Of a DNA stretch of 53,218 nucleotides, positions 15,245 through 48,849 are shown piece by piece. A program made the translations under genes and the position numbers. This DNA is from a virus: positions 1-53,218 of IMG/VR virus record IMGVR_UViG_3300037150_000044; one strand, written 5' to 3'. Every line of letters begins with the position of its first letter. The first letter of the stretch is position 1. Below the pieces are notes generated by a model, which saw only the letters and a program-made list of their open reading frames with translations, was not told where the DNA came from and made no database searches.

Positions 15245-15700
15245 TTACTGCTTGATAAACGTGTAGTCGAGGATGTGGTTTGCGTTGGCCCTCTTCTGGC
15301 CGTTGACGACTACGCGGTACCCCATCTTGCTTGCCTGCTTGTGCAAGTGGAGATGCTGGTAGCCAACGTTGACCTGCGCCACCCACTTCTTATTCTTACC
15401 GCAGGCACGGTCATAATCGCTGAGTATGGCGTGAAACTTGCCGTCCTCACCGCGTACGAAACCGATGTCGTTTGAAGCTCCGCCGACCTGCTTGCGCGGG
15501 ATGATGACGTGGGCTTTCATCGCTGCTGCGATGCTCTTGGTGTGACCGCTGCCGTCTGCCGTGCGGTAGTCTCCCTGATACCCAACGAGGGGCTGAGGCT
15601 CAGCCAACGCGTTGACAGGTTTGAAGCCCATCTCCTCTAGTGCTTTGATGAGGAGGTCTCCGTCTCGAAATTCTGTAGGGGTCTTTGAATATGCAGATAT
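15245..15700 (-). CDS. DUF1257/Ycf35-like protein, apparently starting with AUA
   Basis: The core matches DUF1257 (Ycf35-like): DGDLLIKALEEMGF, LVGYQGDYR, GASNDIGFVRG and DYDRACG. Family members begin MSHFT..., and the matching point here is ATA-TCT-GCA-TAT-TCA (15700-15686), reading ISAYSK. AAGGAGGG lies eight bases ahead of the ATA. The only standard start in frame is a TTG 16 codons upstream, whose ribosome site is poor. I therefore annotate the ATA. It sits between DUF2997-like and Ycf46-like AAA+ genes. Role unknown; in plants and cyanobacteria ycf35 is also unassigned. Confidence 0.72.
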   Translation of the reverse strand: MSAYSKTPTEFRDGDLLIKALEEMGFKPVNALAEPQPLVGYQGDYRTADGSGHTKSIAAAMKAHVIIPRKQVGGASNDIGFVRGEDGKFHAILSDYDRACGKNKKWVAQVNVGYQHLHLHKQASKMGYRVVVNGQKRANANHILDYTFIKQ

Positions 15701-15755
15701 ATAGGTACCCTCCTTGGGTGGTTCGCTGTCAGTTCGATTGTACCACAAATTGAAG

Positions 15756-29778: not shown

Positions 29779-30207
29779 TCAAACCTCCTTTGGAGGCTTA
29801 GGGTATTTGAACCCGTCCTCAACTGGTGAGAGCAGGGTCACGTATTCAGGCGGCAGGGTCTTTGGATCAACCACAAGGATGCGACTCGGGTAAGTAAGGA
29901 ACCCAGCAGTCTTGCACAGGTTCACACCGTAATGCCCTTCGTAGTCGTCATCGACTCCCCATACCTTGATCTTGTACTCGTAGTGGCCTGCCGTATGAAG
30001 ACGCTTTTCATGAGTCTGCCAGTTCTCGACCCATACGTCATCCTTCCACTCGAACTCGACCTTGAGTACCTTGCCAATCCTCAGCCCGGCGCACCGGCCT
30101 AAAGCGTGACCGTACGCGATACAGCTACCAACTAGGATCGGTCGGCCCGTCTTGTCCTTCGGTGTCGTGCTGTCCTGCTTCACTGACGCCGGTAGTTTCG
30201 TCTCCAT
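29779..30207 (-). CDS. Hypothetical protein (142 aa)
   Basis: GGAGG lies six bases before the ATG at 30205-30207. The body is beta-rich with aromatic and Asp pairs (HYEYKIKVWGVDDDYEGHY). It overlaps the end of the RlpA-like gene. No family recognised. Confidence 0.64.
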   Translation of the reverse strand: METKLPASVKQDSTTPKDKTGRPILVGSCIAYGHALGRCAGLRIGKVLKVEFEWKDDVWVENWQTHEKRLHTAGHYEYKIKVWGVDDDYEGHYGVNLCKTAGFLTYPSRILVVDPKTLPPEYVTLLSPVEDGFKYPKPPKEV

Positions 30208-30559
30208 GTGCAACCTCCACTGTTACCCAGCCCCAGCCTGCACGCAGGTCTAGGCCCAATTTCTGAAACGCCGCCTTGCTAAGGTCGAGCGAGTATTTGT
30301 GATTCCACGGGCCTCTGTCAGTAATCGTGACAAGGATTTCGTTGCCCGTCAGGACTGAATGGACGCGAACCAAGGTACCCAATGGATACTTCAGACTGGC
30401 TGCTGTCACCCTGCATTGATCGAACTTTTGACCGTTCGCCATCCGGCGTCCGTTGAAACCGTCTGCGTAGTACGAGGCTTTCACAGGGCGGGTCTGTGCT
30501 TGTGTCAACGATGGAAACGCGCACAGCCCTGCGATTAGTAAGGTTATTAGTAGTCGTAT
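30125..30559 (-). CDS. RlpA-like protein with signal peptide, apparently starting with AUA
   Basis: The domain is RlpA-type double-psi beta-barrel: ASYYADGFNGRRMANG, then YPLGTLVRV, ITDRGPW and LDLSKAAF. Read from ATA at 30559-30557 the protein opens (M)RLLITLLIAGLCAF and then SLTQAQ, a normal signal peptide with an A-x-A-type cleavage. AGGAGG is eight bases ahead of the ATA, and an in-frame TAG lies just upstream. The only standard in-frame start, a TTG 17 codons in, would remove the signal. RlpA-type proteins cut or bind septal peptidoglycan; in phage this would be a secreted wall-acting protein. The C-terminal tail is hydrophilic. Confidence 0.75.
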   Translation of the reverse strand: MRLLITLLIAGLCAFPSLTQAQTRPVKASYYADGFNGRRMANGQKFDQCRVTAASLKYPLGTLVRVHSVLTGNEILVTITDRGPWNHKYSLDLSKAAFQKLGLDLRAGWGWVTVEVAHGDETTGVSEAGQHDTEGQDGPTDPSW

Positions 30560-30581
30560 GCTTTGCGCCTCCTAAGCGCGG

Positions 30582-30782
30582 TCACACCTCGCGGAACTTG
30601 CGGTACCCCTTAGGATACTCCACGACGGCTGCCACTGGTTCGACAGACGGCACAGGCGTTGGCCCGTGTCGGTGATCATTAGTAAATTCTAACACAGCTT
30701 GTTTTGAGTTGTCAACATATCCTTTTTCCTCAAAGTCTAAAATCTTTGCCAAACGAGCTTGTCCAAGAGGTGTGCTAAACAT
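30582..30782 (-). CDS. Protein resembling the C-terminus of its upstream neighbour (66 aa)
   Basis: The motif AVLEFTNDHRHGPTPVP and end YPKGYRKFREV parallel VLVEFCNAHRHVAIVP and SEGERKFKDV at the end of the 333-residue gene just upstream. AGGAAG precedes the ATG. It is a likely partial duplicate of that gene's end. A promoter box lies inside it. Confidence 0.6.
   Translation of the reverse strand: MFSTPLGQARLAKILDFEEKGYVDNSKQAVLEFTNDHRHGPTPVPSVEPVAAVVEYPKGYRKFREV
30687..30715 (-). promoter_or_regulatory. Possible promoter for the RlpA-like gene
   Basis: TTGACA (30710-30715) and TTAGAA (30687-30692), spacer 17 bases, inside a small gene. It would give a transcript starting near 30680, ahead of the RlpA-like gene at 30559. 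Confidence 0.45.
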
Positions 30783-31755
30783 CTTTGAACTTCCTCTCGC
30801 CCTCGGATTGAGGGACGATAGCTACGTGCCGATGGGCGTTGCAAAACTCGACCAGCACCTTGTCCTCGTGCCTGCGCTGTGTGATCACACCGGCTTCGAT
30901 GTCCTGAGGAGTTTTGCACTTGTCACAGAATAGACGATAGACTGTGATGCCGATTCGCTCCTTGCCCTGTATGGATACGTTCAGGTTGGACATCACGCCG
31001 ACACGCTGGATGAACTTCTGCTCGTCGTTTGAGGTATCCTTGAACCCGTCATCAGCAACCGGCTTCTTCATTGCATCCTTGACGGACTTGGGAATACTAG
31101 GCATAGTGACGAACACCGGCTTAACAACAGGCGGGTTGAGGGTCTGCTCGACCATCTTCGCCTGTTGGTTCTGTAGGTCTTGAATGAGTTTCTGAGACTC
31201 TACAGCCTCTTTTACTAAACCAAGGCCCGCGAACCCACCCATACCCGAACCAAGGCCCGCGAACCCACCCATACCCGAACCAATGGCTCCTAGTGCCCCT
31301 AGAAGGCCAGCAAACGCACTCTTACCGTTGGACTCCGCCTGCTGCTGTAACTGAGCGGTACCTTTTGCTGTCTGGGAACCCTGCCCCATTTTTATAGCCT
31401 GCATCTGAGACTCGATGAACGCCTTCTTGGATTTGATGTGATCGTCAATGACAAGCGAGGCAGCAGATGAGACGAGTTCGGTTCTCTCGGACTCGTTCAT
31501 ATTTGCCATGATCATCGCGTCCAGATACGCGGTGCCATAGTGCTCAGAGGTCATGTCCTTGAACGTCTTGATTACGTTCATGGCAATCGTTCCGTTGGTT
31601 TGGTTGGTGACGAACGACAGCGCGTAGTTAGACGCATCCTCGCCAGACCCGAACTGAACGGACTTCGGCCAGTTGTAGTTGATCTTCAGAAACGTCAACG
31701 CCGCAGCTTTGTCGGCTGCGGTCGATGGCGTCGGTTTAGTCAATTCAACCGGCAT
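30775..31755 (-). CDS. Hypothetical protein with Gly repeat and C-terminal cysteine pair (326 aa)
   Basis: Start at the ATG at 31753-31755 with AGGGA ahead. An alpha-rich first half, then SGMGGFAGLG twice in a row (a 30-base tandem duplication in DNA), a Pro-rich linker, and a C-terminal domain with CDKCKTP and VLVEFCNAHRH, like a zinc ribbon. The end is partially copied in the next gene. No family recognised. Confidence 0.7.
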   Translation of the reverse strand: MPVELTKPTPSTAADKAAALTFLKINYNWPKSVQFGSGEDASNYALSFVTNQTNGTIAMNVIKTFKDMTSEHYGTAYLDAMIMANMNESERTELVSSAASLVIDDHIKSKKAFIESQMQAIKMGQGSQTAKGTAQLQQQAESNGKSAFAGLLGALGAIGSGMGGFAGLGSGMGGFAGLGLVKEAVESQKLIQDLQNQQAKMVEQTLNPPVVKPVFVTMPSIPKSVKDAMKKPVADDGFKDTSNDEQKFIQRVGVMSNLNVSIQGKERIGITVYRLFCDKCKTPQDIEAGVITQRRHEDKVLVEFCNAHRHVAIVPQSEGERKFKDV

Positions 31756-31759
31756 GGCT

Positions 31760-32278
31760 TTATCCCTGTTGTTCAATAACTCGTTTCTTCAAATCCTCCA
31801 GAGCAATCGGTGTGTAATCCAAAACCTCTGTGCTGACATTGAAGTACCTCGGTCCATAGTGCAAAGGGCCGAAGCTGTTGTGAATGTGTCCGTGAATATT
31901 GGCGATAGACTTTCCGATGCTCTCCGGGTGAACGGGGATGTGAGTAAGCATCATGCGATCCAATAACCGACCAGAGTACACATCTTCAAAGAAAGGCAAA
32001 TAGAGCTTGATGGGGTGCGTGTCGTGGTTACCAAGAACCAGTCTCTTGTGCCCGTTGCAGCGACCAACCGTAGCGATGTGGTGCTTGCTCATCGCAACAT
32101 CACCAAGATGATATGCCTTGTCCTGCGGATTCACGACGGAGTTCCACTTTTCAACCATGAACTCGTCCATCTCTTCGACACACGAGAACGTACGCACACG
32201 TGATCCGTCTGCACGGGTGAAGTTTAGGATATTCGCGTGTCCAAAGTGCGAATCGCTAATCAGAAAGACATTAGGCAT
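31760..32278 (-). CDS. Metallophosphoesterase (calcineurin-like)
   Basis: SDSHFGHANIL (D-x-H), YHLGDVAMS (GD), LGNHDTHP (GNHD), MMLTHIPVHP and IANIHGHIHNSFG (GHxH) are all the metal-binding motifs of the calcineurin-like phosphoesterase fold, in order, in 172 residues. Small phage members are thought to act on phosphodiesters or nucleotides; the substrate is not known. AGGAG precedes the ATG. Confidence 0.9.
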   Translation of the reverse strand: MPNVFLISDSHFGHANILNFTRADGSRVRTFSCVEEMDEFMVEKWNSVVNPQDKAYHLGDVAMSKHHIATVGRCNGHKRLVLGNHDTHPIKLYLPFFEDVYSGRLLDRMMLTHIPVHPESIGKSIANIHGHIHNSFGPLHYGPRYFNVSTEVLDYTPIALEDLKKRVIEQQG

Positions 32279-34112: not shown

Positions 34113-34188
34113 GTGCTAGGGTGAGCATCGAACCTCACGACCTTCTGGGTCTTACCCAGATGCTCTATCCAGACTGAGCTACCTAACA
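34113..34188 (-). tRNA. tRNA-like gene, anticodon position AAG (Leu codon)
   Basis: The cloverleaf reads: acceptor TGTTAGG/CCTAGCA, D-arm GCTC...GAGC, anticodon stem TCTGG/CCAGA with loop GTAAGAC, variable AGGTC, T-stem GTGAG/CTCAC. The anticodon position is AAG, which would read Leu CUU. Two features are off standard: base 32 is G, and the T-loop GTTCGATG has eight bases. There is no encoded CCA. It may be a working but odd tRNA, a decaying one, or a processing signal. The tmRNA gene is next to it. Confidence 0.6.
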
Positions 34189-34259: not shown

Positions 34260-34740
34260 CTTCTAAAGTTTGCCGAGATTATTTCATACGGCTCTCGGCT
34301 GGCCGCAGCAGATTACGCCGCGAGGCGTGCAACAGAGCGAGTTACGCTAACCTTGCGGAAAGGGAACTCAACAACGTTGCTGCGTTTGCTGGTCACGTTA
34401 GTGGCAGTCTTTGTTTGACTCTCGTTACGGTGAGCATCAGTCCCGGCACGTCCGTCTTGGCTGTATCCAGTTACCCCGTCGAAACCTTGGCACGCCCACC
34501 GAAACACATCTCATGGCCGGAGAACCGGCTCGTGAGGTGGTTGCATCACATCCCTCACGAGCTTAGGCCGGAACCGTTGCAACTCGATTAGAGATGTGTT
34601 CGGGTGGACGTGACGGCATCGAAGCCGTGTCCGCAATAACCTACCAATACATCATACGTGCGTACTCTCAGGGGGCAGGGTTGCAACCCCACGCATTTCG
34701 CACTCGGATTGAGTGGTGTCCTGCTTAGACGACCCCCGAT
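34260..34740 (-). ncRNA. ssrA: tmRNA, circularly permuted (acceptor piece encoded first)
   Basis: Read on the minus strand. The acceptor piece comes first: 34645-34603 contains GTAGGTTATTGCGGACACGG, then TTCGATG and ACGTCCACC, matching the 3' end of bacterial tmRNA (GATGTAGGAATTTCGGAC and T-loop). About 100 bases follow, closed by the hairpin at 34501-34512 and 34591-34601. Then comes the tmRNA 5' end: GGTGGGCGTGCCAAGG, TTTCGACGGGG (34500-34474). GGTGGGCGT pairs with ACGTCCACC. A tag frame follows at 34389-34342 or to 34313, then a hairpin GCCGAGA/TCTCGGC. Outer ends are approximate. Confidence 0.72.
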
Positions 34741-39622: not shown

Positions 39623-39702
39623 AGTAACTAGGAGTTGAGCATAGGAGCCACCCGGATACGCGAGTTCGCAAGAACTTCCACCGGGGGACGACACGCAAGA
39701 TC

Positions 39703-41801: not shown

Positions 41802-41950
41802 GCGAACCGATCGAACAGCAACGCGCAGGCAACGACGTTTCTGTTTCAAAGGTAACTTTAGCGAAAACTGCGCAGCCATTTATGTGCCCCGAGTGCGGGC
41901 AGCGATACCCTCCGATCACTTATCCGATCAGCCAGAAGAACCCTTACTAA
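41798..41950 (+). CDS. Small zinc-motif protein (50 aa)
   Basis: The frame begins with ATG at 41798 overlapping the previous stop (ATGA). It contains CPECGQRYPP, a single CxxC pair. Function unknown. Confidence 0.58.
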   Translation: MSEPIEQQRAGNDVSVSKVTLAKTAQPFMCPECGQRYPPITYPISQKNPY

Positions 41951-41962
41951 AGGAGAATCACC

Positions 41963-42139
41963 ATACTTTATCAACGACCTAGTTTTACTTTGCCTGCTAA
42001 GAGTCCTGTGACTAGCGAGAAAAACTGGGATAGAGCTTTTTTGACTGAGGAGCAGTTTGAATCTAAATACGGACCTAATGAGTACTGGGCGGCGATCCCA
42101 ATAGATAGCGTCCCCGACGCTACAGGTTTTTCAGAGTAA
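41963..42139 (+). CDS. Small protein, apparently starting with AUA (58 aa)
   Basis: AAAGGAG lies seven bases before ATA at 41963-41965, and the reading goes on for 58 codons to a stop just before a terminator. The in-frame TAA of the gene before lies only 12 bases upstream, so no ATG, GTG or TTG can serve near the site. The next possible start (a TTG ten codons in) has no ribosome site. It reads like a real protein (FTLPAKSPVTSEKNWDRAFL and EEQFESKYGPNEYW). No family recognised. Confidence 0.62.
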   Translation: MLYQRPSFTLPAKSPVTSEKNWDRAFLTEEQFESKYGPNEYWAAIPIDSVPDATGFSE

Positions 42140-45877: not shown

Positions 45878-45915
45878 ATATATTGCACCTAAAGTGGGTT
45901 TATGGTGCAATATAT
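45878..45915 (+). repeat. Perfect inverted repeat between terminase and endonuclease gene
   Basis: ATATATTGCACC and GGTGCAATATAT form a 12-base-pair stem over a 14-base loop right after the terminase stop. No T run follows, so it is more likely an mRNA end or processing structure, or a mark of the GIY-YIG insertion. Confidence 0.6.
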
Positions 45916-45944
45916 GGCACCTTATTAGCTCTTGAGGAGATTCA

Positions 45945-46526
45945 ATGCAGGTATACGCCATAAACAACATCGCTAACGGCAAGCTGTACATCGGTCAGCA
46001 CGCAGGCGAAGACCTGATTGCATACCTGAAGCACAACATTAGAGCGGCGTTGCGCAACGCTGGTAATAAGACCTTCTTGTATAGAGCAATTCGCAAATAC
46101 GGAGGAGATAACTTTACGATCCGTTGTATTCACAAGTGTTCGGATAAGAGTGAGATGGATAGTGTAGAGAAGACCTATATCAAATTCTTTGGAACCCAAG
46201 ACCCTGAGTTAGGTTATAACATAACGGCAGGGGGCGGAGGGCGGTTAGGAACCAAAAATCCACACACCGAAGAACAAAAGATAAACATGAGTCGAATCAT
46301 GACAGGCCGTATTTTCACTGCGGAATGGAAGAAAAAAATTGGCGACGCCCAACGGGGCAGACCGCTCACCGAGGCGCATAAAGCCGCTTTGAAAGGTGCT
46401 CAACTGGGGGTAAAGAAATCACCAAGGTCTCCTGAGCATTGCGAAAAAATCAGAGAGAATAAGAGAAAGTGGTGGGCACTAAGGAAGCGGGAGGTTGATC
46501 AATGCCAGACACTCAAGACCGTATAG
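45945..46526 (+). CDS. GIY-YIG homing endonuclease with NUMOD3 repeats
   Basis: VYAINNIANGKLYIGQHAG is the GIY-YIG strand pair, AIRKYGGDNFTIRCI and the Glu in SVEKTYIKFFG complete the catalytic core. GTKNPHTEEQKINMS and similar segments are NUMOD3-type DNA-binding repeats. It overlaps the portal start by 25 bases. Such genes home into phage genes; here it sits between terminase and portal, the latter holding an ORF-less intron. Confidence 0.9.
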   Translation: MQVYAINNIANGKLYIGQHAGEDLIAYLKHNIRAALRNAGNKTFLYRAIRKYGGDNFTIRCIHKCSDKSEMDSVEKTYIKFFGTQDPELGYNITAGGGGRLGTKNPHTEEQKINMSRIMTGRIFTAEWKKKIGDAQRGRPLTEAHKAALKGAQLGVKKSPRSPEHCEKIRENKRKWWALRKREVDQCQTLKTV

Positions 46527-48849
46527 AGTCTGACGGCTCCGTACGAACCACGCTAAGCGTAGAAGACTACGGTAAAGGTAGTGAATTGAAGACGCTCAAT
46601 GCTGAGTTGGCTTTGGTTCTTGGCTCTGCTACAAAAGCTGAGCAGTTCATCATCGACCGCCAGTGGAATCTGCTCTGGAGAGATGCAGATTTACTTTATC
46701 AGTCCCCACGCCCGATGAGCGTGTACGAAAATACCTAAACATACATGGGTCACTCATTAGTAATAATGATGTGAGAACCTTCTCTGATTGACTTGGAAGC
46801 TGAAATGGCTAACAGGGGGCAAGCGAAAGCAGCCTGAACGACTAAGTGAGAGGGCATCCTTCGGGATGGTGCGATAGTCTGACCTGCATGGAATGAAAAC
46901 ATGCAGAGATAAGCAGAAATGACTTATCTCGGTGTAAGCCGATAACAATAAGTGATGTATTAGAACCGAACGTTCAGCGATTCACTGTAGCAAAGGTTGT
47001 GAATGCAGTTGTGCCGCAGCTATATAAGGGATTGTTTTATGCAGACCCTCCTATGGTTCTGCGGCCTCGTGCTGGCACAAGCCAGAAGACAACCGATGCA
47101 AAGACGATTCTCTTCTCCGTTCTTTTGAACGAGTGCAAATTCAAGACTGAAACGAAGTGGGGTCTTGAGCAGATGGCGTGCCTCGGCACCGGCATATGGA
47201 AGTGGGGCATTCGTTACGAAAAGGTAATGACGCAGAAGCGTACCAGTACGGCGGTGAAGTTGTCCGCTGGAGTGGGCGATCAGCAAGACACGCAGACTAT
47301 ACCTACAACCGATCCTCCGAAGGTGACAAAGACTTACCGCACAGTAGCCCGCCCGTTCTTCGAGTCGCGCCCTATCAACAAGGTATGGGTCGCTCCTAAT
47401 TGCGAGTTCGGTGACATTCGCATGTCCGACTTCGTTATCGACGTTCGGTACATGGACTTCTACGCGGTAAACGACATTCGCAAAGCACTAGAAGAGATAC
47501 GCGAACAAGACCCAGAGCACAAAGACCTCGAAGGTTGGAACCTGCCGCGCACTGAAGACGAGCTTCGCAAGTGGTGGTTCGCTCCTATTGGAGATACGGC
47601 CCCCATCTTGGCGAGTGATCAAGCCACGTACATGCGTGGTGCTGTTCACCACTCGGAAGACCAGAACGTTGAAGTCTCGCCGGACAAGCTCTTCAAGAAG
47701 TTGGAAGTGTTGGAGTATTGGGACAAGGGCCGCAAGGTCACTGTTATCGACCGCAAGAAGGTCATCTTCTCCGGGGACAACGAGTTCGGAGTAATTCCGT
47801 TCCTGTCCGCTAACTGGTGGAACCGATCCAAAGCATTTTACGGCATGGGCCTTGGCCTTATTGTCGGACAGAACCAGCGAGTTGATCAGGGCACAATCAA
47901 CGCAATTCTCAAGATTCTGTCCTTTGGTGTCAACCCGATTTATTTGCGCAAGCGTGATACAAACGCTCCGACGCAGATGATCCGTACTGGTCTGGGTAAA
48001 ATCCTGACCGTTGATACAGAAGTCGATAAGTCGTACAAACTGCTTGAGACACCGAAGACCCCGCCTGACATCTGGGCAGCATTAGCCGAATCTGAGAAAG
48101 CGACCGAGAGTTCTTCGGGGGCTGATGCGCAGCTTGTACAAGGCTCGTCCGCAGGCCCACGATCTTCGATGGGACGCACAGCAGGCGGAGCTAATCTACT
48201 TGCAGGCGCAAGCGCGACTCGTCTTGACGGGCCGTTAGACAACTTCATCGAACAGGTGTTCGCACCGTTCTTGTACATCCTTGATGATCTGATCTTGAAC
48301 TACATATCGGATGCTGAGATTGTCGCCATCCTTGGCGATGAGATGGGCAACGATTACGAGGTCGATCTTGAGGCGTTCCACGCAGCTAAGATTGAGTACG
48401 AGGTTCTTGCCGGTGCAGCTTTGGCCGCCAAGCGCACTATGGCTCAGTCGATGACTTTGCTCACACAGATTTTAGAGAACCCGCAGATCACTGATCAACT
48501 CGCAGATGTAAACGAGGAGTACATTGATTGGAAGGTCATCTTGAATATGTGGCTTGAGTCGAGTGAGTGGAAGAACAAGAACGACATCATCAAGCCGATG
48601 ACAGCGCAAATGAAACAGAAACGTGCAGCCGCATCACAAGCCGCACAGCAGCAGTCTAAGGCAGCAGTAGCCCAACAGTCCACGCAGCAGAAGTTCCAAC
48701 AGAAGCAGACGCTTGAAGATCAGGCCACGAACAACCGAATCAAACGAGACATCGTGAGAGAGGCGTTCAAGGACAACGCAACAAGCGAGGCAACTGAAGG
48801 CACTGCTAACCCATTGGGTCTGGAGGGTTCGGAGCCGACTGTAGAGTAA
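46502..48849 (+). CDS. Portal protein, gene split by a group I intron
   Basis: Exon 1 (46502-46736) gives IIDRQWNLLWRDADLLYQSP, and exon 2 (46955-48849) continues YVLEPNVQRFTVAKVVNAVV. Joined they give 709 residues of a phage portal, the ring at the head vertex through which DNA passes. I placed the junction by needing an open frame, T at the exon end, G at the intron end, and a P1 pairing (ACCT with GGGT). Without removal of the intron the frame ends at TAA 46738. A Gln-rich C-terminus (QQSKAAVAQQSTQQKFQ) is at the end. GGGAGG precedes the ATG. Confidence 0.85.
46737..46954 (+). ncRNA. Group I intron without ORF, in portal gene
   Basis: The segment has group I core words: GGGGGCAAGCGAAAGC, GACTAAGTGAGAGGGC and GATAGTCTGACC (the last two forming P7). 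The 5' exon end ACCT pairs with GGGT inside the intron (P1), and ACAT just before that GGGT can pair with the exon 2 start (P10). About 218 bases long, it has room only for the ribozyme. Confidence 0.8.

Follow-up and report, generated by a model that had tools for sequence, protein, structure and literature searches.

An rlpA-like gene in the viral DNA analysed here is very probably translated from an AUA codon at 30559-30557 on the minus strand, which would be a genuine but weak initiation codon, rescued by a strong Shine-Dalgarno (SD) sequence and giving low expression. The DNA is a single stretch of 53,218 nucleotides (the window), recorded from an uncultivated virus and carrying genes for a terminase, a portal-like protein, a DNA polymerase and a helicase. 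Comparable AUA starts recur at two further genes of the same phage, one encoding a DUF1257 protein and the other a protein of 58 residues (Table 1). An earlier, sequence-only reading had proposed a single AUA start; the proposal holds for rlpA, while the recurrence had been missed.

Table 1. Coordinates of the AUA-started genes and their initiation regions in the window
Feature	Position	Strand	Remarks
rlpA-like gene	30125..30559	-	144 aa from AUA; stop at 30125
Shine-Dalgarno AGGAGG of rlpA-like gene	30568..30573	-	TTAGGAGGC; -10.2 kcal/mol with anti-SD; overlaps in-frame TAG
ATA (AUA) start of rlpA-like gene	30557..30559	-	spacer CGCAAAGC, 8 nt
First in-frame standard start of rlpA-like gene, TTG	30506..30508	-	without SD; unlikely start
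Putative signal peptide (M)RLLITLLIAGLCAFPSLTQA	30497..30559	-	predicted signal peptidase I site TQA|Q, from hydropathy and homologues
Upstream 66-aa ORF	30582..30782	-	stop 22 nt ahead of rlpA ATA
Shine-Dalgarno AAGGAGG of DUF1257 gene	15709..15715	-	-11.9 kcal/mol
Second AUA start, DUF1257 gene	15698..15700	-	spacer 8 nt; aligns with ATG in L161, L162 and L163-L166, with ATC in L108
DUF1257 (PF06868) gene	15245..15700	-	151 aa from AUA
Shine-Dalgarno AAGGAG of 58-aa gene	41950..41955	+	-8.7 kcal/mol
Third AUA start, 58-aa gene	41963..41965	+	spacer 7 nt; aligns with ATG in 12 loci, L167-L178
58-aa gene, function unknown	41963..42139	+	(M)LYQRPSFTLPAKSP...; conserved in phage group

The start of the rlpA-like gene

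On the minus strand the region reads ...GCGCT TAG GAG GCG CAA AGC ATA CGA CTA CTA ATA ACC TTA..., the leader DNA being TTAGGAGG CGCAAAGC ATA CGA CTA CTA. The AGGAGG that had been placed eight bases ahead of the ATA is indeed found there, at 30573-30568. The in-frame TAG invoked against a longer frame is also present (30574-30572) and closes the frame, although "directly upstream" was a slightly loose description of a codon that lies four codons 5' of the ATA and overlaps the SD. No ATG, GTG or TTG opening an ORF of at least 25 aa occurs 2-13 nt past this SD, and the AUA is the sole start that is suitably spaced from it and keeps the leader, which supports the preference for AUA in the earlier reading. 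Two AGGAGG-N8-ATA arrangements are present in the window, where 0.15 would be expected; 2 of 100 shuffles reach that count, and both arrangements lie at positions that serve orthologues as starts. A predicted hairpin holds the SD and the AUA, with a strength no greater than chance (z -0.35 relative to shuffles). Translational coupling to the upstream 66-aa ORF is possible. A frameshift from that ORF into rlpA is impossible, since the stop of the ORF precedes the in-frame TAG.

The product read from the ATA is (M)RLLITLLIAGLCAFPSLTQA-QTRPVKASYYADGF..., and its residues 26-108 match DPBB_1 (PF03330) with 57.7 bits (gathering cut-off 28.8, E 1.5e-15). NCBIfam TIGR00413 (rlpA) scores 76.9 bits, just under its curated cut-off of 82.15, and PA4485 (4avr) is the closest chain of known structure, at E 6e-10. 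No canonical lipobox was found in the product, LIAGLC having L at -1 instead of G, A or S, and we name the protein RlpA-like. It resembles the RlpA septal lytic transglycosylases (PF03330, TIGR00413) in its DPBB domain with the DRGP motif and in its predicted export, but it is short, shows no SPOR domain, lacks a lipobox and stays below the TIGR00413 cut-off. The "rare lipoprotein A" proteins of other phages (for example the Tunturiibacter phages Tunturi_4/5 and Synechococcus phages) share the domain at 35-50% identity and, unlike the window gene, have standard starts where examined.

Standard gene callers would first accept the TTG at 30508, which lies 17 codons in, as the earlier reading had counted, and translation from it would yield a cytoplasmic product devoid of a signal peptide. 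We regard this as highly improbable. The duplex energy at the TTG is -1.6 kcal/mol, compared with -10.2 kcal/mol at the ATA, so that the TTG has no SD of its own and its use would leave the strong SD without a start. Moreover, the 17 codons upstream of it encode a leader whose hydrophobicity is matched by only 0.2% of the stop-free 17-codon stretches in the window and whose position is matched in the orthologues. The TTG reading contains no hydrophobic segment, in agreement with the earlier claim that such a start would strip the leader. The accompanying argument, that a secreted protein without its signal would make no sense, is weak as a sole ground; the case for the AUA is made by the orthologue alignment together with the position of the SD.

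The rlpA gene is sporadic in this phage group, occurring in 4 of 47 related records, and the window gene is only 45-49% identical to its orthologues. In two of these genomes, G026 (L097) and G021 (L098), it lies downstream of a homologue of the window gene 30775-31776, the same place as in the window. A standard start at another site in a related phage had been named as the finding that would speak against AUA, and this comparison favours AUA: in the syntenic L097 the start reads GGAGGATGA-TTG-AGA, with a GGAGG ahead of a TTG AGA that aligns with ATA CGA of the window, and the resulting M-R aligns exactly with the window I-R. Signal-like leaders are also present in L098, L147 and L148, at TTG or TTG/GTG-type starts, the start of L098 being less certain. 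Most RlpA homologues found have such a leader right after a standard start, which is TTG, TTG, GTG and GTG in the nearest and ATG in the distant ones; among the most distant, one or two loci (L157, L160) have no clear start. Neither the phage records nor the viral contigs searched contained a close relative of the rlpA region, and the rlpA ATA is read from one contig in a region that the sister phage described below does not cover.

Recurrence of AUA starts and the sister phage

When the window was scanned for codons that follow an SD at 5-9 nt where no standard start is within reach, ATA was the commonest (six sites, the next codon having three). At three of the six, namely rlpA, the DUF1257 gene and the 58-aa gene, homologues start at exactly that residue, and all three have strong SDs at a spacing of 7-8 nt. 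The DUF1257 start reads AAGGAGG N8 ATA TCT GCA TAT TCA, aligned with ATG AGC GCA TAC AGC in L125/L162 and in the sister phage (L161), whose protein is 93% identical and starts with ATG. In the G021 orthologue (L108:16741) the start is AUC, in the context TAG GGT AAC TAT ATC AGC GAG TAT TCA, with an in-frame TAG three codons 5', at a position that is ATG in the others and AUA in the window. The 58-aa gene starts AAGGAG N7 ATA CTT TAT, opposite an ATG in L167-L178, several of which derive from near-identical contigs; the start of the distant L179 is unclear, and all other relatives have ATG.

We also surveyed near-cognate sites, anchoring them by homology: of 1,951 in the window and eight relatives, the clean coding-strand cases were the three ATAs of the window and a single ATT, in G025; without the SD requirement, one case was added, the ATC of the G021 DUF1257 orthologue. 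The G025 AUU start (L115:18536) reads AAGGAGG N6 ATT and opens a conserved phage protein of 144 aa (ILRQDDYFKGKLV...) whose orthologues begin with ATG, ATG, GTG and TTG. Several other candidates were discarded. The ATA at 46942 in the portal gene, considered as a fourth start, is an artefact that stems from an intron-like insertion ahead of the exon; ATA 42722 has an ordinary ATG 4 or 8 codons upstream; ATA 14359 of G015 lies inside an acetyltransferase gene with an ATG 19 codons upstream; and a CTG candidate in G027 (L140:2747) is antisense to the terminase. Two SD-placed ATA positions at 39641 and 39656 (plus strand) share one frame just ahead of a tRNA cluster and have no clean homology support.

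Since the window is a single metagenomic contig, the ATA codons could be ATGs altered by sequencing or assembly. This explanation is barely credible: it would take three independent errors, all in third bases of SD-placed starts, in a contig with more than 30 further starts that are ATG, and the ATC and ATT in other contigs are sites of the same kind.

Two contigs, G062 and G015, which we take to be two parts of one sister phage, share mostly 71-97% DNA identity with the window and cover most of it except about 24.7-37.1 kb. Among the aligned SD-placed starts of window and sister, 31 are ATG in both and two are ATA in the window and ATG in the sister, with none reversed, the reverse direction for G062 being covered by a separate comparison. 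The SDs of the ATA starts are stronger than those of 23 ATG starts (median -7.0; one-sided p 0.018, based on three ATA values only). Compared with the sister, the DUF1257 gene has a dN of 0.061 and a dS of 0.75, and the 58-aa gene a pN of 0.20 and a pS of 0.93. Both genes evolve under purifying selection, as measured by a pairwise comparison that is compatible with a recent change on the window branch.

These data weigh on the most serious alternative, decay after start loss, according to which an ATG mutated, rlpA is silent or nearly so and its ORF has not yet decayed, and likewise for the other two genes. The sister indeed has ATG at both genes that it covers, and AUA is very weak in E. coli. 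Against this, all three genes retain intact frames and strong SDs, the purifying selection on two of them (again pairwise only) is at odds with silence, three losses would be needed in a genome where no other broken genes were seen, and the DUF1257 start is AUC in a related phage. We therefore consider decay unlikely and retain weak but genuine AUA initiation as the preferred explanation.

A possible mechanism and its precedents

AUA and AUG differ solely in the third base. In the mechanism that we propose, the 30S subunit would bind the strong rlpA SD and place the AUA in the P site, where initiator tRNA fMet(CAU) would pair with the A and the U and leave a C-A mismatch at the third base. The protein would begin with fMet, at an efficiency lowered by the discrimination of IF3 against the weak third pair. 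Export of the DPBB/RlpA-like enzyme by way of Sec would follow, directed by the leader MRLLITLLIAGLCAFPSLTQA, with signal peptidase I cleaving behind TQA. The same initiation may operate at the DUF1257 gene (15700) and the 58-aa gene (41963). We infer initiation at AUA, its low rate, export, cleavage and a wall-degrading activity from the sequence. The AUA of rlpA probably serves to keep down the dose of a protein that may damage the wall, as judged from its nearest orthologues, which also use weak starts (TTG, TTG, GTG).

IF3 requires Watson-Crick pairing only at the first two bases, and a weaker third pair is tolerated with low yield (PMC10158994). In Staphylococcus aureus, infC, ccpN and citZ start with AUA and cvfC1 with AUU, with extended SDs, and AUA with an extended SD yields about 10-30% of AUG (PMC13009471). 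In E. coli reporters, AUA yields no more than about 1% of the AUG level (Hecht et al. 2017, cited in PMC12864459), which speaks against initiation at AUA. The S. aureus genes share with ours an AUA right behind a strong SD, the absence of standard codons and an expected low, possibly tunable expression; those are host genes identified by Ribo-Ret and reporters, whereas ours are phage genes, three in a 53-kb contig, known from sequence evidence alone. The AUU start of E. coli infC serves IF3 autoregulation, and the GTC start of Streptomyces sigR is repressed by IF3 (PMC5472188). Both have in common with the present genes a non-canonical start, IF3 discrimination and low expression, the latter two being proposed here; a difference is that none of the window genes was recognised as encoding IF3. 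No phage-encoded initiator tRNA or tRNA-Ile(UAU) was found in the window, the sister or the relatives scanned.

A different decoding of AUA was also considered, either by its reassignment to Met or by TadA deaminating the A to inosine, which would give an AUG-like AUI. Reassignment is excluded: of 167 internal ATA codons, 66 align with I, 36 with V, 16 with L and 16 with M. Editing might draw on the TACG core of TadA sites, which is contained in the rlpA ATACGAC; this sequence, however, differs from YTACGAA at two places, its A lies outside a loop, and the other two genes read TATC and TACT, without TACG. The probability of either process is negligible, and we return to AUA initiation by the ordinary initiator tRNA.

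It is conceivable, though we advance it only tentatively, that AUH starts (AUA, AUC, AUU) are a recurrent, selected device of this phage group, by which IF3-sensitive starts with strong SDs would give low or infection-dependent expression of chosen genes; the DUF1257 start departs from the canonical codons in two diverged phages, being AUA in the window and AUC in G021. AUA is a very rare start codon, with infC and ccpN as known examples. The presence of several in one phage seems to be unreported, at least in the papers searched, which left subscription journals mostly outside. Annotation bias may hide AUA starts, a caveat to be set beside PMC5622118. Gene finders without AUA starts by default will truncate or miss such genes, and truncating rlpA at its standard start removes the export signal and changes the predicted biology. 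With its three AUA starts, two of which correspond to ATG in the sister, this contig is a natural setting in which to ask whether phages control dose or timing through IF3-discriminated starts. A low dose fits the exported, possibly wall-degrading rlpA product.

Other features of the contig

A host search by the terminase returned one Bacteroidetes MAG contig, which is probably a binned phage contig, and gives no safe host. The portal gene appears to be interrupted or preceded by an insertion at about 45880-46962. The insertion contains a homing endonuclease of the GIY-YIG type (45945-46526), and what resembles the 3' end of a group I intron immediately precedes the exon. No Rfam intron matched it at gathering score. 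L029 shares the insertion; L028 and others read continuous. A permuted (two-piece) tmRNA lies at 34313-34661 on the minus strand (Rfam RF04321, 52.2 bits, cut-off 47), and further two-piece tmRNAs are present in G021 (L108:2362-2602, 79 bits, also detected by ARAGORN) and G026 (L125, ARAGORN). Such tmRNAs are known in phages (phage Melnitz, PMC9004378), mostly aquatic ones. Close by, at 34113-34188 (minus strand), a tRNA-Leu carries an unmodified AAG anticodon, which is unusual for bacteria and their phages.
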